NCBI RefSeq assembly: GCF_023702225.1
Contig: NZ_JAMQCO010000010.1
Span: 1-61,978 of the forward strand
DNA length: 61,978 nucleotides
Source of the DNA: Aureimonas altamirensis
GTDB taxonomy: Bacteria > Pseudomonadota > Alphaproteobacteria > Rhizobiales > Rhizobiaceae
Direction of reading: 5' to 3'
Shown: one piece after another, positions 49,250 to 58,450 of the stretch
Layout of the letters: every line of letters starts with the position of its first letter
Numbering within the stretch: position 1 is the stretch's first letter
Position numbers and translations under genes: made by a program
Notes under the pieces: generated by a model
Seen by the model: the letters and a program-made list of their open reading frames with translations, nothing else
Database searches by the model: none
Told to the model about the DNA's origin: nothing

Positions 49250-49912
49250 TCATATGGCGTCGCACAGCACGCCATAGGCTCCGTCGATATCGGCCACAAG
49301 CGCGGCCGTCGCCGCTTCCGCGTCCCCGCGCCCGAGCGCATCGTGCATCGCCTGGTGCCAGGTGTTTGAAATCCGGAAGTTTCCCGATTCCCTCAAGAGG
49401 TGGAAATAGGGGCTGATCTGCAGCCAGAGCTTCTCGATCATGCCCAGCAGGATCGGCGACCCGGCCTGCCGATAGATCCGGAAATGGAAATCGTAATTGG
49501 CCGCGACATAGAGCTTCGGATCGCTGGTCCGCTCCGCCTGCCTCAGTCTGTCCAGCGGCAAGCCCAGATCCGACAGGAACGCGCCATCGGCCCGGGCCGC
49601 AGCCCAGCGCACGGCGGTCGACTCCACGTCCAGCCGCACATTGCGAAGATCGTCCAGCCGCTCGCGCGTCAATTGCGGAATGCCGATCGTCCGTCCGGAG
49701 ATCACCGTCAGCGCACCCGCTTCCGTCAACCGCGTCAGGGCCTCCCGCACCGGCATGGGGCTGACTTCGAACGCGCTGGCAAGGCTGGCAACGGTTATCG
49801 ACTGCGCCGGAGCAATGCCCCCTTCCAGGATCAATTCGCAGAGGCGCCGGAACACACCGTCCTGCAGGGTTTCCTTGCGCAAAGGCAGGACGCGGTCGCG
49901 AATGGCGGACAT
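49250..49912 (-). CDS. GntR-family regulator, FCD subfamily
   Basis: A 220-residue regulator. The winged helix LQDGVFRRLCELILEGGIAP then SLASAFEVSPMPVREALTRL is at residues about 16-60, and the helical FCD effector domain with YDFHFRIYRQAGSPILLGM and WHQAMHDALGRGD (metal-binding His) follows. It is divergent from the importer operon and should repress it until a sugar-acid-like ligand binds. GGAG is seven bases before the ATG at 49912. A palindrome in the divergent spacer is the likely operator. Confidence 0.9.
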   Translation of the reverse strand: MSAIRDRVLPLRKETLQDGVFRRLCELILEGGIAPAQSITVASLASAFEVSPMPVREALTRLTEAGALTVISGRTIGIPQLTRERLDDLRNVRLDVESTAVRWAAARADGAFLSDLGLPLDRLRQAERTSDPKLYVAANYDFHFRIYRQAGSPILLGMIEKLWLQISPYFHLLRESGNFRISNTWHQAMHDALGRGDAEAATAALVADIDGAYGVLCDAI

Positions 49913-49984
49913 AAACAACTCCACATGGGATCTTCAGTCAAAAGAATAGCGCCTGAAGAGACACACTTGAAGTCTTTTCGATTT

Positions 49985-49999
49985 TTGATCTAATATCAA
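49985..49999. promoter_or_regulatory. Palindromic GntR operator candidate
   Basis: TTGAT and ATCAA arms flank a CTAAT spacer: a perfect 5-bp inverted repeat. It lies in the AT-rich divergent spacer between the GntR gene (start 49912) and the importer (start 50060). The five-base spacer differs from an FNR box, which needs four. Confidence 0.55.
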
Positions 50000-50059
50000 T
50001 TCATGGCGCTTCGAATGGTCACGGGGAGATGTGATCCACGCGCCCCCAGGGAGGAAATC

Positions 50060-51184
50060 ATGACGTTCGCGACCCGATGCGGGACGCTGGCGATGGCGCT
50101 CGGCCTTTCGGCCGTGATGACGCCACTCGCGGCCGCCCAGGAGAAGCACAAGGTCTTCCTGTCGATGAGCTACATCGGCAACGACTGGCAGGCCGAGGCT
50201 TCCAACATGGTCAAGGCGATGGCGGCGTCGGCCGGCTTGAAGGACAAGGTGGACCTGGAGGTCCAGGTTGCCGGACCGAACGCCCAGCGGCAGATTCAGC
50301 AGATAAACGCCATGGTGCAAGCGGGTGCCGACGCGATCGTCGTCTATCCGATCTCGCCGACGGCCCTGAACCAGGTGGTCAAGAATGCCTGCGCCAAGGG
50401 CGTCAAGATCGTTGCCTACGACGCCGAGATCACCGAGCCCTGCGCCTACAACGTCACCATCGACCAGGCCGAAGCCGGCCGCCGGACGGCGGAATGGCTG
50501 GCCGACAAGCTGGGCGGCAAGGGCAACATCGTGCTTGTGACGGGCGTTCCCGGCACTTCGGTCGATACGGCCCGCACCAGCGCGGCAAGGGAAGTCTTTG
50601 CGAAGTTCCCCGACATCAAGGTCGTGGGCGAGGCCGTCGGCATGTGGAGCCAGGCCGTTGCGCGCACCGAATTGTCCAAGCTCCTGGCCACGCGCAACTG
50701 GGACGGCATCGACGGCCTGTGGATGCAGGTGGGCTGCTATACGGCCAATGCGATGCAGTTGGAAGCCGGGCACACGGCGGAGCAGTTGAAGCCGTGCGCC
50801 GGCGAAGGCTCGAACGGCGGTCGCATCCAGATGCTGCCCGCCGGCACCGAGGTAGAGGGTGCGGACGGCCCCTATGCGCCGATGGGCGCGCCGCGCATCT
50901 CCTATGCCTCGCCCCCCTACTCCGGCGCCTATGCGCTGAAGCTGGCGGTCGAGATGCTCGACGGCAAGACCGACGTTCCGCAACACACGACCCTTCCGCT
51001 GCCGATCGTGACCAACGAGACGGTCAAGCTTTGCGAAACCGGCAGCTGGGAAGAAATGAAAAACGGCTGCAACGCCTTCAAGCCCGCCATCGTCGCCAAT
51101 CCGGGGTGGTTCGCTTCCATCTTCTCGGAAGAAACCCCGGAAGTCGGCCTCAACGCCGCCCTCGTGGGCCAGCCGGAGCAATGA
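50060..51184 (+). CDS. Sugar-binding periplasmic protein (Peripla_BP_4)
   Basis: A 374-residue ribose-type binding protein. The signal peptide MTFATRCGTLAMALGLSAVM runs to AAAQEK. Mature motifs are VFLSMSYIGNDWQAEASNM, AGADAIVVYPISPTALNQV and YDAEITEPCAYNVTIDQAEA. GGGAGGAAATC precedes the ATG. It is longer than the 4-13 kb locus protein and carries extra cysteines in the C-terminal lobe (VGCYTAN, KPCAGEG, KLCETGS, NGCNAF) that could form disulphides. It is the first gene of the GntR-controlled operon. Confidence 0.9.
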   Translation: MTFATRCGTLAMALGLSAVMTPLAAAQEKHKVFLSMSYIGNDWQAEASNMVKAMAASAGLKDKVDLEVQVAGPNAQRQIQQINAMVQAGADAIVVYPISPTALNQVVKNACAKGVKIVAYDAEITEPCAYNVTIDQAEAGRRTAEWLADKLGGKGNIVLVTGVPGTSVDTARTSAAREVFAKFPDIKVVGEAVGMWSQAVARTELSKLLATRNWDGIDGLWMQVGCYTANAMQLEAGHTAEQLKPCAGEGSNGGRIQMLPAGTEVEGADGPYAPMGAPRISYASPPYSGAYALKLAVEMLDGKTDVPQHTTLPLPIVTNETVKLCETGSWEEMKNGCNAFKPAIVANPGWFASIFSEETPEVGLNAALVGQPEQ

Positions 51185-52731
51185 GCGCGGAGGGCACGGC
51201 CGCCGTCGCCTTCGATTCGATTTCCAAGGCGTTCGGGGCGACGAAAGCCGTCAGCGACGTGAGCTTCCGGGTCGAGCGGGGCGCAGTCCACGCTCTTCTC
51301 GGAGAGAACGGCGCCGGCAAATCCACCACCATGAAGCTTCTGTCCGGCCTGATCGCGCCGGACAGCGGCACCATCGCGATCGACGGTCGCAAGGTGAAGC
51401 TGTCCAGCCCGCGCGATGCGCACCGGGCCGGCATCCGCACGGCGTTCCAGGAACTGACGCTGGTGCGCGACCTGTCGGTCCTCGACAACATGCTGTTGCC
51501 GAGTGCGCCGACCAGCCTTCTCGGCACCCTGCGTCGACGTGCTGTGGCCGACCGCGTGGAAGCCCATTTCGAACGCCTCGGCATGCGGCTCGACCTGCAT
51601 GCCGAGGCAGGCAGCCTCGACCTCGCCATGCGCCAGAAGATCGAGATCGCCCGCGCGCTGTTCCGCGAGCCGACGCTGCTGCTGCTCGACGAACCAACTT
51701 CGGCCCTGACGGGAAGCGATGTCGAATGGCTGGGCCGCATCATCGCCGATGCCCGTGCGCGCGGCGTCACGGTGCTGTTCATCTCGCACCGCATGCCCGA
51801 GGTGCGCGCCTTCTGCGACACGATGACCATCCTGCGCAACGGCCGACATATCGCCAGCGGCACCGTTGCCGGATTTACCGACGGGCAGGTAATCGAGATG
51901 ATCATCGGGCGCTCGCTGGATCAGACCTTCCCGCCACGGCGCGAAAATGCCGAAAAGCGTCCACCGGAGCCGGTTCTCGAAACGCGTGGCCTGTGCGCTG
52001 GCGGCAAGCTGAAGGATATCGACCTGCAGTTGCGGCCCGGCGAGATTCTCGGCGTCGCGGCCTTGCAGGGCATGGGCCAGCTCGACCTTTTCTCGGCCTG
52101 CTTCGGCGCGACCGCCGTGCGCGGGGGAGAGCTTCTGGTCGACGGTCAGCCGGTTCACCTTTCGGCTCCGGCGGATGCGCTGCACCCGTCGCTGCGGATC
52201 GGCTTCCTGCCCGAGGATCGCAAGACGCAAGGCCTGTTTCTGAAGCTCGACGGCACCACCAATGCCAGCCTGCCAGTCATCGACCGCTTCACGCGCGGCG
52301 GGCTGATAGACCGTGGTGCGGAGCGCGCCGCGGCCGAAACGGTCTTCAACATCGTCGACGTCTCGCCCGTTGCCTCCTACACCGAGGCGGGCGCATTCTC
52401 GGGTGGCAATCAGCAAAAGATCGCCATAGCCAAGTGGCTGGTTGCGGAAAGCCGCATCCTGCTCCTGTTCGATCCGACGCGCGGCATCGACGTCGGCACG
52501 AAGCACCAGCTTTACGAGCTCATGCGCGCCTTCGCGGATGCCGGCGGCGCGGTGCTGTTCCATTCCACCGAGATTCCGGAACTCGTCCATCTCTGCGACC
52601 GGATGGTCGTCCTTTACGAAGGCCGCGTCGCGGCCCGGCTGGAGGCTCGCGAGATCGACGAGCGCGCCATCATGCATGCCGCGCTGGGCGGCGCGCAGCA
52701 CCCGGCCGATCGCCCGGGAGCGGCAGCATGA
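51181..52731 (+). CDS. Sugar ABC transporter ATPase (RbsA/MglA-type)
   Basis: A 516-residue ATPase with two nucleotide-binding halves. Walker A GENGAGKSTTMKLLSGL is in the first; the signature region reads LDLAMRQKIEIARALFREPT with DEPTSALTG after it. The second half has FSGGNQQKIAIAKWLVAESR and LLLFDPTRGIDVGTK. ATG overlaps the binding-protein stop by four bases. Complete for a CUT2 importer, and partnered with a fused permease. Confidence 0.92.
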   Translation: MSAEGTAAVAFDSISKAFGATKAVSDVSFRVERGAVHALLGENGAGKSTTMKLLSGLIAPDSGTIAIDGRKVKLSSPRDAHRAGIRTAFQELTLVRDLSVLDNMLLPSAPTSLLGTLRRRAVADRVEAHFERLGMRLDLHAEAGSLDLAMRQKIEIARALFREPTLLLLDEPTSALTGSDVEWLGRIIADARARGVTVLFISHRMPEVRAFCDTMTILRNGRHIASGTVAGFTDGQVIEMIIGRSLDQTFPPRRENAEKRPPEPVLETRGLCAGGKLKDIDLQLRPGEILGVAALQGMGQLDLFSACFGATAVRGGELLVDGQPVHLSAPADALHPSLRIGFLPEDRKTQGLFLKLDGTTNASLPVIDRFTRGGLIDRGAERAAAETVFNIVDVSPVASYTEAGAFSGGNQQKIAIAKWLVAESRILLLFDPTRGIDVGTKHQLYELMRAFADAGGAVLFHSTEIPELVHLCDRMVVLYEGRVAARLEAREIDERAIMHAALGGAQHPADRPGAAA

Positions 52732-54821
52732 GCCAGGCCACGACATTGCCGGCATCACCCCGCGCGCCGGCGCGCCCCGCCCCACTGCGCTGGCTTGCGC
52801 GCAACCGCGCAGCGCTGACGGCGCTTGCCGTCTTCGCGCTTCTTTTCGCCTTCGTGGACTGGATCAGCCCAGGCCCGATGACCTATTTCGACATCTCGTT
52901 CCAGGCCAGCGGCGGCACCGCGCTGGCGCTCGCCGCCATGGGACAGACGCTGGTCGTCGTGTCCGGCGGATTCGACCTTTCGGCCGGTGCGGTCATCTCG
53001 TTGGTCAACGCGGTGCTGGCGGCCAGCATGGACCCAGCGCAGATGGAAGCCTCCGTGCTTCTCTGGACTCTCGTCGGCATCGCCGTCGGCATGGGCGTCG
53101 GCGCCGTCAACGGGCTGTTCGTCGCCTTCCTTCGACTCCAACCCATCGTCGTCACCCTGTCCACCATGTTCATCGTGCAAGGGCTCACGCTGCTGGTGCT
53201 GAACCAGCCGGGCGGCTTCGTGTCTCCATCGCTCGGCAACCTCTACATGGGCGACGCCATTCCCGAACTGGTTCCCGCCTCGCTGGTCCTCCTGGGCGCG
53301 GCGGCACTGTTCTGGCTCTGGTTGAAGAAGACGCGCTTCGGCGTCAGCCTCTATGCGGCGGGGAGCGACCCGGCCGCCGCGGAAGCGACCGGCGTGCGCG
53401 TGCCGTGGGTGCGCTTCGGCGCCTATGTGCTGGCCGGCGGATTCTACGGGCTCGCCGGCGTCTTCGTCAGCGCGCAGACCGGCTCGGGCGATCCGCTCGT
53501 CGGCAACTCGCTGCTCTTGTCCATGTTTGCGGCCGTCGTGATCGGAGGAACGCGCCTCGGTGGCGGCAAAGGTGGCCTCATCGGCACTATCTTCGGCGCC
53601 TTCGTGCTGATGATCGTCGTGAACATCCTTCTGGCGCTGAACGTCTCGGCCTATTACTCCACCATCGCCGAAGGCGGGGTGCTGCTGGCCGCCGTTCTCG
53701 TCGGCTCCTTCGCGCGGGACCAGGTCCTGATGGAGCAACTGCGGCGCCTGGCCGGCATCGCCTCGGCCCGGCGTGCGGGCACCCATGTGTCGCAGCGCGG
53801 CGGCGGCGACCGCAAGCTGCCTTTTGCCTCAGCCAGCGCGCGGCCACGCGCGCCATCCGACCGGCTTGCGGAACCCGGGTTCCTGCAACGGCACGGCGCG
53901 GTCCTGCGCTACGCGCTGCCCGCCTATGTGTGCCTGGCCCTGGTGCTGATCGCCACGCAGGTCCTGCTGGGCAACACATTGACGAGCTGGGGCTTCTGGA
54001 ACTCGCTGCTTGTCCTGTCCACCTTCCTCGTGATCCTGGCGCTCGGGCAGGGTTCCGTCATCCTGACAGGCGGCCTCGACCTTTCGGTTCCCTGGACGAT
54101 CGGACTGTCCGGAATACTTCTCGCCGGCATCGTCCAGGGCTCGGACGTCGCCCTTCTCTACGCCGTTCCCCTTGTGCTGCTGACCGCCGCCTGTATCGGC
54201 CTTCTCAACGGGCTCGGCGTCGTCGCGCTCGGCCTGTCGCCCATCGTGGTCACGCTGGCGGCCAACGGCATATTGCAGGGTATCGCCCTGATCTACTCCA
54301 ACGGGACGCCCTCGGGGTTCGCTTCGCCATGGTTGCGCTGGCTGATGACAGGCCGCCTTGGCCCCATCACCCCTGTTCTCATCCTCCTGGCGGTCTTTCT
54401 CTTCGCAGGGACATTGCTGCTGGGGCGTACCGCCTTTGGCCGGCGGGTCTATGCGGTGGGCAACAGCATTGAAGCGGCACGCCTGTCCGGCGTGCGGACC
54501 GGGCGGGTCGTCGTCGGCGTCTATATCCTGTCGGCACTTTGCGCCGCGCTCGTGGGCATTCTCCTGACCGGCTTTTCCGGCCAGGCGAGCCTTGGCATGG
54601 GCGACGACTATCTTCTGCCCTCCATCGCCATCGTGGTCGTAGGCGGTGCGCTCATCACGGGCGGACGCGGGCACTTCCTCGGCATGGTGGGCGGCGCGCT
54701 GCTGCTGACGGCCCTGCAGACGCTCCTGGCCGGCACGACCCTTCCCTACGCCTTCCGGGCCATCTTCTTCGGCTGCGTCGTGCTGGCCGCCGTGATCGCC
54801 CTTCGAGAGAAACGGAGCTGA
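52728..54821 (+). CDS. Fused double sugar ABC permease
   Basis: A 697-residue protein made of two RbsC-type permease domains in tandem. Domain one is roughly residues 25-340, with GGFDLSAGAVISLVNAV near 84-100; domain two is roughly 385-695, with TGGLDLSVPWTIGLSGILLA. A charged, Arg-rich linker of about 45 residues joins them. The usual importer has two separate permeases; here the heterodimer is one chain. ATG overlaps the ATPase stop by four bases. The two halves are not identical, so this is a gene fusion of different subunits, not a recent duplication. Confidence 0.9.
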   Translation: MSQATTLPASPRAPARPAPLRWLARNRAALTALAVFALLFAFVDWISPGPMTYFDISFQASGGTALALAAMGQTLVVVSGGFDLSAGAVISLVNAVLAASMDPAQMEASVLLWTLVGIAVGMGVGAVNGLFVAFLRLQPIVVTLSTMFIVQGLTLLVLNQPGGFVSPSLGNLYMGDAIPELVPASLVLLGAAALFWLWLKKTRFGVSLYAAGSDPAAAEATGVRVPWVRFGAYVLAGGFYGLAGVFVSAQTGSGDPLVGNSLLLSMFAAVVIGGTRLGGGKGGLIGTIFGAFVLMIVVNILLALNVSAYYSTIAEGGVLLAAVLVGSFARDQVLMEQLRRLAGIASARRAGTHVSQRGGGDRKLPFASASARPRAPSDRLAEPGFLQRHGAVLRYALPAYVCLALVLIATQVLLGNTLTSWGFWNSLLVLSTFLVILALGQGSVILTGGLDLSVPWTIGLSGILLAGIVQGSDVALLYAVPLVLLTAACIGLLNGLGVVALGLSPIVVTLAANGILQGIALIYSNGTPSGFASPWLRWLMTGRLGPITPVLILLAVFLFAGTLLLGRTAFGRRVYAVGNSIEAARLSGVRTGRVVVGVYILSALCAALVGILLTGFSGQASLGMGDDYLLPSIAIVVVGGALITGGRGHFLGMVGGALLLTALQTLLAGTTLPYAFRAIFFGCVVLAAVIALREKRS

Positions 54822-54825
54822 ACGC

Positions 54826-55611
54826 ATGTCGCAGAACATCATGAGCGGTCTGGAAGGCCAGCGGGTCATCGTGACGGCGGGCGCCGGCGGGATCGGCGAA
54901 GCGACCGTAAGGCTGCTGCATGCACAGGGCTGCCGCATCGCCCTGTGCGATGTCTCGGCGGAATCGCTGGAACGGCTCTCGGCGGAACTGCCCGGCGTCA
55001 CCGCGTTGCGCGCGGACGTATCCGACGAAAGCGACGTCGCCGGCTTCTTCGACGCCGCGCTGTCGTCGCTCGGCGGGCTGGACGCCCTCGTCAACAATGC
55101 CGGCATCGCTGGGCCCACCGGCGGCGTGGAGGACATCTCCATCGCCGACTGGCGGCGCTGCCTGGATATCGGACTGACCGGTCAGTTCCTGTGCGCGCGT
55201 CTTGCCGTGCCGCAGATCAAGGCCGCCGGCGGCGGATCGATCGTCAACATGTCGTCTTCCGCCGGACGCCACGGCTATGCCTACCGCACCCCTTATGCGG
55301 CGGCGAAGTGGGGCGTCATCGGCTTTACCCAATCGCTCGCCAAGGAGCTCGGCCCGGCCAATATCCGCGTCAACGCCGTGCTGCCCGGCATCGTCGAGGG
55401 GCCACGCATGGACGGCGTCATCCGCGACCGCGCCGGACGGCTGAACCTGTCCTTCGAGGACATGAAGGCCCAGTACCTGCAAACAGTCTCGCTGAGGCGC
55501 ATGGTGACGCCGCAGGATGTGGCGGCATCCATCGCGTTTCTGATGTCGGATGCCGGCCGCAACCTGTCGGCAATGTCGTTCAACGTCGACGGCAATGTGG
55601 AGACCCTGTGA
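54826..55611 (+). CDS. SDR oxidoreductase, probable aldose/sugar dehydrogenase
   Basis: A 261-residue short-chain dehydrogenase. The coenzyme motif TAGAGGIGEATVRLL is at 17-31, VNNAG at 89-93, and the active site has Ser144-145, Tyr157 and Lys161 in PYAAAKWGVIG. It ends SFNVDGNVETL. It begins four bases after the permease stop with GGAG upstream, and its stop shares a base with the next start. In context it is likely to oxidise the imported sugar at C1, or a sugar acid; the substrate is not settled by sequence. Confidence 0.82.
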   Translation: MSQNIMSGLEGQRVIVTAGAGGIGEATVRLLHAQGCRIALCDVSAESLERLSAELPGVTALRADVSDESDVAGFFDAALSSLGGLDALVNNAGIAGPTGGVEDISIADWRRCLDIGLTGQFLCARLAVPQIKAAGGGSIVNMSSSAGRHGYAYRTPYAAAKWGVIGFTQSLAKELGPANIRVNAVLPGIVEGPRMDGVIRDRAGRLNLSFEDMKAQYLQTVSLRRMVTPQDVAASIAFLMSDAGRNLSAMSFNVDGNVETL

Positions 55612-56558
55612 TGGACTCCGTCTCCGTTATCGGCGCGGGTCTGATCGGCCGCGCCTGGGCCATCACCTTCGCGCGGGCGGGGTGCCGCGTGCGCCTGTGG
55701 GATCCGGTGCCGAGCGCCATCCCGGAAGCGATGGACTACATCGCATCCGTGGCAGACGACCTCGTGCGCAACGATCTTGCCGGGGGGCGCGACCGCGATA
55801 CCCTGCTGAAGGCCATCGAGGGGCGCGACACGCTCACCGCCGCGCTGGAGGGTGCGTCCTGGGTGCAGGAATGCGGCCCGGAGCGCATCGAAACCAAGCG
55901 GGAGACGTTCGCCCGGCTGGACGCGTCGGCGGACCCGGACGCCATACTGGCGTCCTCTTCCTCCGCGCTGCTGCCATCAGCGATTTCGGAGGGGCTCGCA
56001 GGTCGTCGCCGGTGCGTCGTGGCCCACCCGATCAATCCTCCCTACCTTGTGCCTGCCGTCGAGCTAGTGCCTGCGCCATGGACCGATGCCGGCATCATGG
56101 ACCGTGCGGCGGCTTTCCTGAGGGGTATCGGACAGGTGCCGTTGGTCATGGAGCGTGAGATCGACGGCTTCATCATGAACCGGCTGCAGGGCGCACTGCT
56201 GGACGAGGCGTTCCGGCTGGTCGAGGGCGGCTATGCCAGCGCCGCCGATGTGGACCGTGGCATCGCCGACGGCATCGCCTTGCGCTGGAGCTTCATCGGA
56301 CCGTTCGAGACGATCGACCTGAACGCTCCGGCCGGCATCGCCGACTATGTCGCCCGCTACGGGCCGATGTACGCGCGGCTTGCGGACAGCATGCGCCGCC
56401 AGCCGGACTGGGCCGCGATCACGGCGGGTGGCATCGAGGCGGAGCGCCGCGCCGCCCTGCCCGCCGAACGCCTTTCGGACCGGCAGCGCTGGCGCGATGC
56501 GCGCCTGATGGCCTTGCGGGCCCGCAAGCGTAACGCCGACGCGCAATTCGGCAACTGA
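55611..56558 (+). CDS. 3-hydroxyacyl-CoA/L-gulonate 3-dehydrogenase-like protein
   Basis: A 315-residue short form of the 3-hydroxyacyl-CoA dehydrogenase superfamily, the size of L-gulonate 3-dehydrogenase (lambda-crystallin) and carnitine dehydrogenase. The NAD site is VIGAGLIGRAWAITFARAG at 6-24. The catalytic pair is His139 in VAHPINPPYLVP with Glu151 in AVELVP. LHYEY-type CoA anchors are not obvious. The ATG overlaps the SDR stop (TGATG). It would oxidise the C3 hydroxyl of a hydroxy acid, giving the beta-keto acid that BKACE needs. Confidence 0.82.
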   Translation: MDSVSVIGAGLIGRAWAITFARAGCRVRLWDPVPSAIPEAMDYIASVADDLVRNDLAGGRDRDTLLKAIEGRDTLTAALEGASWVQECGPERIETKRETFARLDASADPDAILASSSSALLPSAISEGLAGRRRCVVAHPINPPYLVPAVELVPAPWTDAGIMDRAAAFLRGIGQVPLVMEREIDGFIMNRLQGALLDEAFRLVEGGYASAADVDRGIADGIALRWSFIGPFETIDLNAPAGIADYVARYGPMYARLADSMRRQPDWAAITAGGIEAERRAALPAERLSDRQRWRDARLMALRARKRNADAQFGN

Positions 56559-56583
56559 CTTGTCTTTTTCCAAGGAAACGAAG

Positions 56584-57537
56584 ATGTCCATCAACGCCTC
56601 CGCCGCCACGCCAGCCGGCAAAGTCATCATCACCTGCGCCGTCACCGGCGCCATCCATACGCCGACCATGTCGCCCTATCTGCCGATCACGCCGGAGGAG
56701 ATCGCAGCGGATGCCATCGGCGCAGCCGAGGCGGGAGCAGCCATTCTGCACCTGCATGCCCGCAACCCGGAGAACGGAAAGCCCGACCAGACGCCGGAAG
56801 CCTTCGCAAGGTTCCTGCCCCGCGTGAAACAGGCCACCGACGCCGCCATCAACATCACCACAGGCGGCAGCCCGTACATGAAGGTCGAGGAGCGCGTGCT
56901 GCCGGCGGCCACCTTCAAGCCGGAGGTCGCCTCACTCAACATGGGGTCGATCAATTTCGGCTTGTACCACCTCGCCCCGCGCTACGAGACCTTCAGGTTC
57001 GAATGGGAAAAGCCGCACCTCGAGGCAACGCGCGACCTGGTGTTCCGAAACTCGTTCAAGGACATCGAGTACATTCTGGAAACCTGCTACGACAACGGTA
57101 CGCGCTTCGAGTTCGAGTGCTACGACATCGCGCATCTCTACAACCTCGCGCATTTCGCCGACCGCGGTCTCGTCAAGGCGCCGTTCTTCGTCCAATCGGT
57201 ATTCGGGCTTCTCGGCGGCATCGGCACCCATCCGGAAGACGTGATGCACATGAAGCGCACGGCGGACCGCCTGTTCGGCGCGGATTATCGCTGGTCGGTG
57301 CTGGGGGCGGGCTCCAGCCAGTTGCGCATTGCCACGCAGGCCGCGGCCATGGGCGGCAATGTCCGCGTCGGGTTGGAGGATTCGCTCTGGGCTGGCAGGG
57401 GCAGGCTCGCCACGTCCAGCGCCGACCAGGTGCGGATGGTGCGGCAGGTCATCGAGGGGCTGGGCCTCGCCGTGGCGACGCCGGACGAAGCCCGGCAGAT
57501 CCTGCAACTCAAGGGCGGCGACAAGGTCGGGTTCTGA
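56584..57537 (+). CDS. BKACE (DUF849) beta-keto acid cleavage enzyme
   Basis: A 317-residue member of the BKACE family (DUF849, 3-keto-5-aminohexanoate cleavage enzyme type). Zinc ligands are His56 and His58 in ILHLHARNPENG and Glu265 in VRVGLEDSLWAGRG; ITTGGSPYMKVEERV and SLNMGSINF are family signatures. BKACE enzymes split a beta-keto acid with acetyl-CoA into a CoA thioester plus acetoacetate or a relative. AAGGAAACGAAG precedes the ATG. The adjacent 3-dehydrogenase would supply the substrate. In carnitine users a similar pair exists, but the sugar importer and lactonase argue for an aldonate. Confidence 0.9.
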   Translation: MSINASAATPAGKVIITCAVTGAIHTPTMSPYLPITPEEIAADAIGAAEAGAAILHLHARNPENGKPDQTPEAFARFLPRVKQATDAAINITTGGSPYMKVEERVLPAATFKPEVASLNMGSINFGLYHLAPRYETFRFEWEKPHLEATRDLVFRNSFKDIEYILETCYDNGTRFEFECYDIAHLYNLAHFADRGLVKAPFFVQSVFGLLGGIGTHPEDVMHMKRTADRLFGADYRWSVLGAGSSQLRIATQAAAMGGNVRVGLEDSLWAGRGRLATSSADQVRMVRQVIEGLGLAVATPDEARQILQLKGGDKVGF

Positions 57538-57571
57538 CGAAGCGGCCCGGCAAAAGGAAGGGGAGGTCTAC

Positions 57572-58450
57572 ATGCGTATCGAGGTTCTTCTGGACGTCAA
57601 GACGACGCTGGGCGAAGGCCCGCTCTGGGACGCGGAGCAGGAGCGGCTCTATTTCATCGACAGTTTCGACGGGCGCGTGTTCCGCACGACGGTCGACGGA
57701 CGGGAGCTTCGTGCCTGGGACGTTCCGGGCAAGATCGGCTCCATGGCGCTGCGCAAGGATGGCCAAGGCGCGATCGTCTCTCTCCAGAACGGATTCCACG
57801 CGCTGGACTTCCGGACCGGAGATTGCGACCTCGTCCATGATCCGGAGCCGGACCGGCCGGCCAACCGCATCAACGACGGCAAGGTGGATCGGCGCGGCCG
57901 GTTCTTCGCCGGTTCCATGGACACGATGGAGGAAGGCCCTTCCGGCGCGCTGTACCGGCTCGATCCGGATTTCAGCGTCCATACGGTCGACACCGGCATC
58001 ATCTGTTCCAACGGGCCCTGCTTCGCCCCGGACGACCGCACCTTCTACTTCGCGGATACCTGGACGGGTGAGATCTGGGCCTACGATTACGACATCGAAA
58101 CCGGCTCGGCCACCAACCGCCGCACGTTCGTTTCCGTGGACACGTCGCGAGGCGGAGCCGCCGACGGCTCGACCGTCGACGCGGAAGGGTGCCTGTGGAA
58201 CGCGCTCGTCTATGACGGACGGCTGGTTCGCTATGCGCCCGACGGCAGCGTCGAGCGCATCATCGACATGCCGGTCAAGAAGGTGACGAGCGTCATGTTC
58301 GGCGGGCCGAACCTGGACATCCTGTTCGTGACCTCGATGGCGAAGCCGCCCTTGCCGCGCTTCCCGGATGACGGCGTCCAGCGCGGCAGCCTGTTCGCCG
58401 TCCACGACCTCGGCGTACGCGGCCTTCCGGAGCCGCGTTTCGGCGCCTGA
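57572..58450 (+). CDS. SMP-30/gluconolactonase family lactonase
   Basis: A 292-residue six-bladed propeller lactonase. Metal ligands fit the family: Glu15 in TTLGEGPLWD, Asn147 in CSNGPCFAPD and Asp198 in GGAADGSTVD; NRINDGKVDRRGRFFAGSMD is the signature. It opens sugar lactones to aldonic acids. GGGGAGG precedes the ATG, 34 bases after the BKACE stop. As the last gene of the operon it fits between a C1 dehydrogenase and the C3 dehydrogenase in a sugar oxidation route. Confidence 0.9.
   Translation: MRIEVLLDVKTTLGEGPLWDAEQERLYFIDSFDGRVFRTTVDGRELRAWDVPGKIGSMALRKDGQGAIVSLQNGFHALDFRTGDCDLVHDPEPDRPANRINDGKVDRRGRFFAGSMDTMEEGPSGALYRLDPDFSVHTVDTGIICSNGPCFAPDDRTFYFADTWTGEIWAYDYDIETGSATNRRTFVSVDTSRGGAADGSTVDAEGCLWNALVYDGRLVRYAPDGSVERIIDMPVKKVTSVMFGGPNLDILFVTSMAKPPLPRFPDDGVQRGSLFAVHDLGVRGLPEPRFGA

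Follow-up and report, generated by a model that had tools for sequence, protein, structure and literature searches.

A conserved CUT2-importer operon in Aureimonas altamirensis and its probable kinship with the oxidative deoxyribonate pathway

The DNA analyzed here (the window) is a stretch of 61,978 nucleotides from Aureimonas altamirensis (NCBI RefSeq assembly GCF_023702225.1, contig NZ_JAMQCO010000010.1, positions 1 to 61,978, forward strand). At positions 49250-58450, it carries a divergent GntR gene and a run of seven codirectional genes on the + strand, encoding a CUT2-type ATP-binding cassette (ABC) importer, a short-chain dehydrogenase/reductase (SDR), a lambda-crystallin-like dehydrogenase of the 3-hydroxyacyl-CoA dehydrogenase (HCDH) type, a beta-keto acid cleavage enzyme (BKACE), and an SMP-30 lactonase (Table 1). 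Sequence comparisons suggest that this operon probably serves a 2-deoxyaldonate of the deoxyribonate kind, or its lactone, and represents a variant of the oxidative deoxyribonate pathway in which uptake runs through an ABC importer.

Neighboring genes of the run overlap by 4, 4, and 1 bases or are separated by gaps of 4, 25, and 34 bases (from coordinates), and all eight gene products exceeded their Pfam cut-offs in a profile search. The eight genes are one transcription-unit-like run behind a GntR/FCD regulator. An original prediction, made from the letters alone, had described this layout (a GntR gene and seven codirectional genes, with overlaps or gaps of 34 bases or less), and coordinates and Pfam scores confirm it. 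The families that it had named (sugar-type importer, lactonase, 3-hydroxy-acid-type dehydrogenase, and BKACE) are borne out by Pfam and NCBIfam matches, and the absence of a kinase, aldolase, or sugar-acid dehydratase holds among the eight genes (Pfam search).

Table 1. Genes and candidate regulatory site of the operon (positions in the window)
Feature	Position	Strand	Basis
GntR/FCD-family regulator	49250..49924	-	Pfam FCD 83.5 bits, GntR 52.1 bits; divergent from operon
Inverted repeat TTGAT-N5-ATCAA, candidate operator	49985..49999	.	Between regulator and binding-protein gene
CUT2-type periplasmic binding protein	50060..51184	+	Peripla_BP_4 175 bits
ABC transporter ATPase, two ABC_tran stretches	51181..52731	+	Pfam
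Double permease fused in one 697-aa chain, with two BPD_transp_2 stretches	52728..54821	+	BPD_transp_2 202 bits
SDR; most likely sugar-acid (2-deoxyaldonate) 3-dehydrogenase	54826..55611	+	adh_short_C2 190 bits
Lambda-crystallin-like 3HCDH enzyme; probably second C3 dehydrogenase	55611..56558	+	3HCDH_N 151 bits
BKACE, beta-keto acid cleavage enzyme	56584..57537	+	PF05853 358 bits; NF053538 546 bits (cut-off 430)
SMP-30 lactonase, most likely for 2-deoxyaldonolactone	57572..58450	+	SGL 266 bits

GTDB species genomes were scanned with the window BKACE; 554 relatives were confirmed, and the best 80 loci were kept. A second source was a 398-genome Pseudomonadota sample that counted the own genome among its members; every one of the 50 BKACE places lying outside that genome was taken. 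The resulting 134 BKACE rows (80 GTDB loci and 50 sample places, four fetched twice) were reduced to 129 by removal of identical BKACE genes. The core set comprised 70 loci with a related SDR or HCDH gene within ~9.5 kb and sufficient flank; dropped from it were 51 rows that lacked a related SDR or HCDH gene nearby and 8 core rows close to a contig end, and the window and the plasmid loci named below stand outside this tally. Loci were classed by BLAST to reference genes with identity thresholds of our own setting (SDR, 42%; HCDH, 44%; SMP-30, 42%; CUT2, 45%; LIV and MFS, 25%), the importer class "none" meaning that none was recognized within ~9.5 kb. Genes of relatives were called by codon statistics, with some frames or starts wrong; those of L125 and L127 were read from open reading frame lists. 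One SMP-30 row (L005a), mistranslated, was set aside.

Importers among the 70 core loci were of the CUT2 (43 loci), LIV (8), TRAP (3), MFS (3), and CUT1 (1) types, with none recognized in 12. In the best 80 of the 554 loci, CUT2 genes were present in 43, accompanied by SDR, HCDH, and SMP-30 genes in 40 and arranged in the window's order in 39; the gene set is therefore not a chance assembly, and the conserved co-occurrence for which a search had originally been proposed does exist. Across the 398 genomes, 15/22 HCDH matches and 18/37 SDR matches lay ≤12 kb from a BKACE match. The set recurs in other alphaproteobacteria, in Bordetella, and in Caballeronia, with plasmid examples in Rhizobium ruizarguesonis (pRlX3), Agrobacterium (pQ15_94_2), Phyllobacterium zundukense, and Caballeronia grimmiae. 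Caballeronia and the locus L127 hold it in another order (SDR, BKACE, a metallo-beta-lactamase-fold protein, ABC genes, HCDH, SMP-30), an argument for joint function of the parts. In Thalassospira marina, SDR, BKACE, and HCDH genes form a cluster of the LIV type, where a lactonase is not annotated, and an Azospirillum BKACE locus had none of these neighbor genes. A separate branch of the BKACE tree (L140, L142, L143, L205, L209, L213, and others) adjoins genes of the class III aminotransferase family and HDAC-like genes of the acetylpolyamine amidohydrolase type, both named by eye; such neighbors, one or both, occur in 18 noncore rows (one locus counted twice).

The original prediction knew of no described route with this gene set, but the deoxyribose/deoxyribonate pathway combines SDR, BKACE, and lactonase. 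The portion of Price et al. 2019 (PMC6365646) available to us gives genetic evidence that these three enzymes of Pseudomonas simiae WCS417 serve deoxyribose utilization and mostly that of deoxyribonate too, from a cluster that also holds a gntR-like gene and two MFS genes. A literature search, with most subscription journals beyond reach, found no description of a CUT2-SDR-HCDH-BKACE-SMP-30 operon. Published systems were compared through stand-in loci of matching gene order. L125 (GntR, SDR, BKACE, SMP-30, MFS, MFS) has the published P. simiae order; L243, from Klebsiella pneumoniae, has the eight genes and the order given for Klebsiella michiganensis (CoA-synthetase-type enzyme, CoA-transferase, FabG, thiolase, MFS, SMP-30, MFS, glycerate kinase); and L128 and L129 (BKACE, MFS, second SDR, SDR) have that of Paraburkholderia bryophila locus tags 00641-00644. 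Between L125 and L243, lactonases are 67% identical and MFS proteins 54% and 66%; values given for P. simiae and K. michiganensis are 70% and over 50% (PMC6365646).

The window SDR is 48 to 52% identical to the SDRs of L125, L127, L128, and L129 and forms a clade (support 100/99) with those of L125 and L128/L129, from which six other SDRs, an outgroup of our choosing, fall apart. The window BKACE falls in a 100/100 clade with that of L125, and the window SMP-30 shares 70% identity with its L125 counterpart and 65% with the one in L243. By family, the operon thus has the SDR, a clustered BKACE, and the P. simiae/Klebsiella-type lactonase of the deoxyribonate pathway; a CUT2 ABC importer replaces the MFS transporters, and for this reason the operon is termed a variant.

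Likeness and difference run through each published cluster, as far as the available portion of the source goes (PMC6365646). That of P. simiae joins a GntR regulator, SDR, BKACE, and lactonase with the same predicted chemistry, whereas its importers are MFS proteins, an HCDH-type dehydrogenase is not reported there, and a molybdenum-dependent deoxyribose dehydrogenase is encoded separately. Those of P. bryophila and Burkholderia phytofirmans, judged by the order of L128/L129, share the SDR and BKACE families but have another transporter and lack a close lactonase homologue; the P. bryophila regulator is of the AraC family rather than GntR, and the "beta-hydroxyacyl-CoA dehydrogenase" of these clusters is by position a FabG-like SDR in L128/L129, not a member of the window's HCDH family. 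The K. michiganensis cluster shares the lactonase family and ends in glycerate, as proposed for the window, but follows a proposed CoA-thioester/thiolase route with no BKACE (PMC6365646).

Which step the SDR takes is suggested by the importers with which it travels. SMP-30 genes were present in 43/43 CUT2 loci, 0/11 LIV/TRAP loci, and 0/12 loci with no recognized importer; the SDR gene was kept in 11/11 LIV/TRAP loci and 10/12 loci with no recognized importer. LIV and TRAP systems often transport acids, and CUT2 systems often transport neutral sugars. The CUT2 importer and the lactonase thus cotravel, and the acid appears to be the substrate of the SDR-HCDH-BKACE core. Were the SDR an aldose 1-dehydrogenase, it would be expected to vanish alongside the lactonase at acid-type importers; since it stays, it is more likely an acid 3-dehydrogenase. 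Its clade with the deoxyribonate-order loci likewise disfavors the aldose 1-dehydrogenase role that had been assigned to it. The importer/SMP-30 tally would be read most simply as import of a lactone, 2-deoxyribonolactone for example.

The HCDH-type enzyme belongs by sequence to the lambda-crystallin family (3ado, 245 bits; 3f3s, 227 bits) and scores 444 bits against NF004783 (cut-off, 347); its scores against the carnitine dehydrogenase models are far under their cut-offs. Lambda-crystallin is a gulonate 3-dehydrogenase. The HCDH-type gene was found in 42/43 CUT2, 10/11 LIV/TRAP, and 0/3 MFS loci; it was not found nearby in L030, which has a KduD-like SDR (207 bits; cut-off, 339), and the edge-limited CUT2 locus L080 also lacks it. 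The context of HCDH relatives was read in four loci whose fetched sequence gave no BKACE match (L229 to L232), of which L230 and L232 gave no readable gene context. At L231:6883-11774, the relative has a DUF1537 kinase, class II aldolase, and KdgT as neighbors, in a locus with a DeoR-type regulator (by eye), so oxidation of a sugar acid at C3 by this family fits; we read the locus as a tetronate-like pathway with an HCDH-type dehydrogenase, in a non-deoxy sugar-acid context. L229:5566-12566 is one run of a related binding protein (39%), a LacI-type regulator (by eye), a metallo-beta-lactamase-fold protein, the HCDH relative, a histidinol-dehydrogenase-like protein, and an SDR; from its gene content, it is labeled as another putative sugar-acid-type cluster. 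Enzymes of the HCDH family oxidize L-configured 3-hydroxyls (L-gulonate, L-carnitine), and FabG-like SDRs oxidize D-configured ones; because of this stereochemistry, the SDR and HCDH pair may cover both C3 epimers. The HCDH-type enzyme is perhaps a second C3 dehydrogenase of opposite (L) stereochemistry, and this is the weakest step of the scheme.

From the gene families, their conservation, the shared clades and high identities of SDR, BKACE, and SMP-30 with loci of published order, and the linkage patterns, we infer the substrate, lactone uptake, the direction, and every activity of the following route. The CUT2 importer would take up a neutral 2-deoxyaldonolactone, most likely 2-deoxy-D-ribonolactone, which SMP-30 would open to the acid. 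Oxidation of the acid at C3 would fall to the SDR, with the HCDH-type enzyme (suggested to act on a C3 hydroxyl of the opposite, L configuration) helping or acting in parallel. BKACE would use acetyl-CoA to cleave 2-deoxy-3-ketoribonate, giving glyceryl-CoA and acetoacetate, and the route would be completed by enzymes encoded elsewhere: a CoA-transferase or hydrolase, a thiolase, and a glycerate kinase.

Linked genes in a few relatives bear on the products. L130 has a linked Gly_kinase (468 bits); L054 has linked MOFRL and DUF4147 domains above Pfam cut-offs, with NCBIfam glycerate 2-kinase under cut-off; and L063 has a glycerate-kinase-like protein 45% identical to that of L054, also under the NCBIfam cut-off. 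In L240 and L244, MOFRL and DUF4147 are above cut-off in a glycerate kinase on the same strand behind a window-type operon. L052 and L063 have linked genes for 3-oxoacid CoA-transferase subunits that score above the family cut-off, and L063:4200-14640 combines a TRAP importer, SDR, BKACE, both CoA-transferase subunits, HCDH, and the glycerate-kinase-like gene. Because of these linkages, acetoacetate and glycerate as products, and hence a 2-deoxypentonate, would fit; the evidence for these products is thin. The own genome encodes one MOFRL-family protein (C23) and one CoA-transferase pair (C3), not adjacent, as candidates for the glycerate kinase and for acetoacetate activation. An HIBCH-like ECH_2 gene follows the glycerate kinase in L244:14708-15790 and lies near L064:12631-13668, with NF004127 above cut-off in both, and L240 has, from 18805 on, an annotated enoyl-CoA hydratase-family gene (annotation only) after its glycerate kinase. 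Of 337 genomes surveyed from the order, 134 had an ECH_2 match (one listed for each) and 108 had BKACE matches; the closest same-contig pair found among the matches listed lay 33 kb apart. The HIBCH-like gene is a lead, a candidate glyceryl-CoA hydrolase. In L240:13431-17468, a homologue of the nickel-dependent lactate racemase larA, accompanied by LarB and LarC, lies between the window-type operon and the glycerate kinase; it could be a glycerate racemase.

Several points weigh against the deoxyribonate assignment. The tally counts related genomes, not independent events, and the published strains were represented by stand-in loci rather than by their own sequences. SDRs of L125 and L128/L129 are 45 to 46% identical, slightly below the 50 to 60% given for P. 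simiae and Burkholderia, and the BKACEs of L128/L129 lie outside the clade of the window and L125. SMP-30 also occurs with MFS (1/3) and CUT1 (1/1) importers, so its linkage to CUT2 is no proof of lactone import. A fold search with the AlphaFold model of the binding protein (mean predicted local distance difference test score, 89.3) gave general CUT2 sugar-binding folds only, with no ligand assignable: among the 50 matches listed, the best was 4pe6, together with ribose-, fructose-, arabinose-, and galactofuranose-binding proteins (16 to 24% identity). Published BKACE clusters need no HCDH of this family, yet almost every CUT2 locus carries one. Linkage to glycerate kinase (L054, L063, and L130; 3/70 core loci) or CoA-transferase (2/70) is rare, and each is 0/43 in CUT2 loci. 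In the available portion of the source, the P. simiae SDR forms a ketodeoxyribonate in vitro, the position of the keto group being left undetermined, and the BKACE cleavage that would give glyceryl-CoA and acetoacetate is a proposal not shown directly (PMC6365646).

The distribution of the HCDH gene, present with CUT2 importers and absent from the MFS loci that match published deoxyribonate orders, would be explained if the same scheme had another main substrate (a C3-epimer, 2-deoxytetronate lactone, or 2-deoxyhexonate, say) and the HCDH-type enzyme, whose family acts on L-configured hydroxyls, were its main 3-dehydrogenase. We consider this unlikely, given an SMP-30 that is 65 to 70% identical to deoxyribonate-type lactonases and a glycerate kinase linkage in a few relatives that suggests a C3 product. 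The originally predicted route seems distinctly improbable: a full aldose would be imported and converted by the SDR to a lactone, by SMP-30 to an aldonate, by the HCDH-type enzyme to a 3-keto-aldonate, and by BKACE to an acyl-CoA and 2-hydroxyacetoacetate. The lambda-crystallin resemblance, the non-deoxy sugar-acid context of the L231 relative, the carriage of aldoses by CUT2 importers, and the nearest solved relative of SMP-30 (7plb, which we take to be a xylonolactonase) all favor it. Against it stand the retention of the SDR in 21/23 LIV/TRAP/none loci, its clade with deoxyribonate-type SDRs, and the few linked CoA-transferases, which fit acetoacetate; moreover, we know of no enzyme for 2-hydroxyacetoacetate. 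The gene families and general chemistry of that prediction stand, its novelty does not, and the SDR step and the hydroxylated acetoacetate product were probably misassigned, the latter on the thin grounds of linked CoA-transferase and glycerate kinase, which fit acetoacetate and glycerate. A route for carnitine or another quaternary amine, suggested by the pairing of BKACE with an HCDH-type dehydrogenase, is barely credible, since the window HCDH scores 173 bits against the carnitine 3-dehydrogenase model NF005716 (cut-off, 592) and the own genome holds a separate carnitine pair on contig C40 (dehydrogenase, 817 bits; BKACE 31% identical to that of the window), as befits the noncarnitine route first proposed. 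The carnitine module follows the same dehydrogenase-plus-BKACE logic with different subfamilies.

The window BKACE carries the NCBIfam label "3,5-dioxohexanoate:acetyl-CoA acetone transferase," which is not diagnostic, as 4/4 other BKACEs (L127, L128, L130, and L140), from CUT2, MFS, TRAP, and aminotransferase/HDAC loci, pass NF053538. A third BKACE of the genome (L003; G000:C4:68516-69307 and upstream) adjoins an HCDH-type gene and what by eye is a fragment of a tricarboxylate-type binding protein; neither the BKACE nor the HCDH-type enzyme was over a curated cut-off (NCBIfam search). The best NCBIfam relatives of the importer ATPase are xylose/arabinose/ribose ATPases, all under cut-off. A single long permease gene is likewise annotated in the four plasmid relatives named above; in L027 and L038, gene calling split the permease into two pieces. 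The binding protein (E ≤ 1e-60) has a patchy distribution close to home, being present in 5/20 other genomes of the genus. Neighbor sorting placed a divergent GntR gene ahead of the CUT2 genes in many relatives. The repeat TTGAT-N5-ATCAA occurs once in the window (chance expectation, 0.03) and recurs perfectly in 37/45 homologous regions between GntR and binding-protein genes (window counted among the 45), making it a conserved candidate operator for the operon.

The deoxyribonate assignment, if right, would extend the oxidative deoxyribonate pathway to an operon of many alpha- and some betaproteobacteria, whose genes are annotated in the records of plasmid relatives only as "3-keto-5-aminohexanoate cleavage protein," "3-hydroxyacyl-CoA dehydrogenase," and "sugar ABC transporter," and would suggest a specific lactone importer. 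GapMind, in the portion available, lists the glyceryl-CoA hydrolase step as unknown (PMC9007349); the linked CoA-transferase and HIBCH-like hydrolase genes are candidates for it. Deoxyribonolactone from oxidative DNA damage is named as a possible source in the available portion of PMC6365646. As a tentative extension, the operon might be a dedicated importer-plus-lactonase salvage system for this damage product, with the SDR (for D) and the HCDH-type enzyme (for L) feeding one BKACE and an L063-type CoA-transferase possibly passing CoA directly from glyceryl-CoA to acetoacetate. If this were true, a single reaction of the L063-type CoA-transferase could account for both steps that the pathway leaves unassigned.

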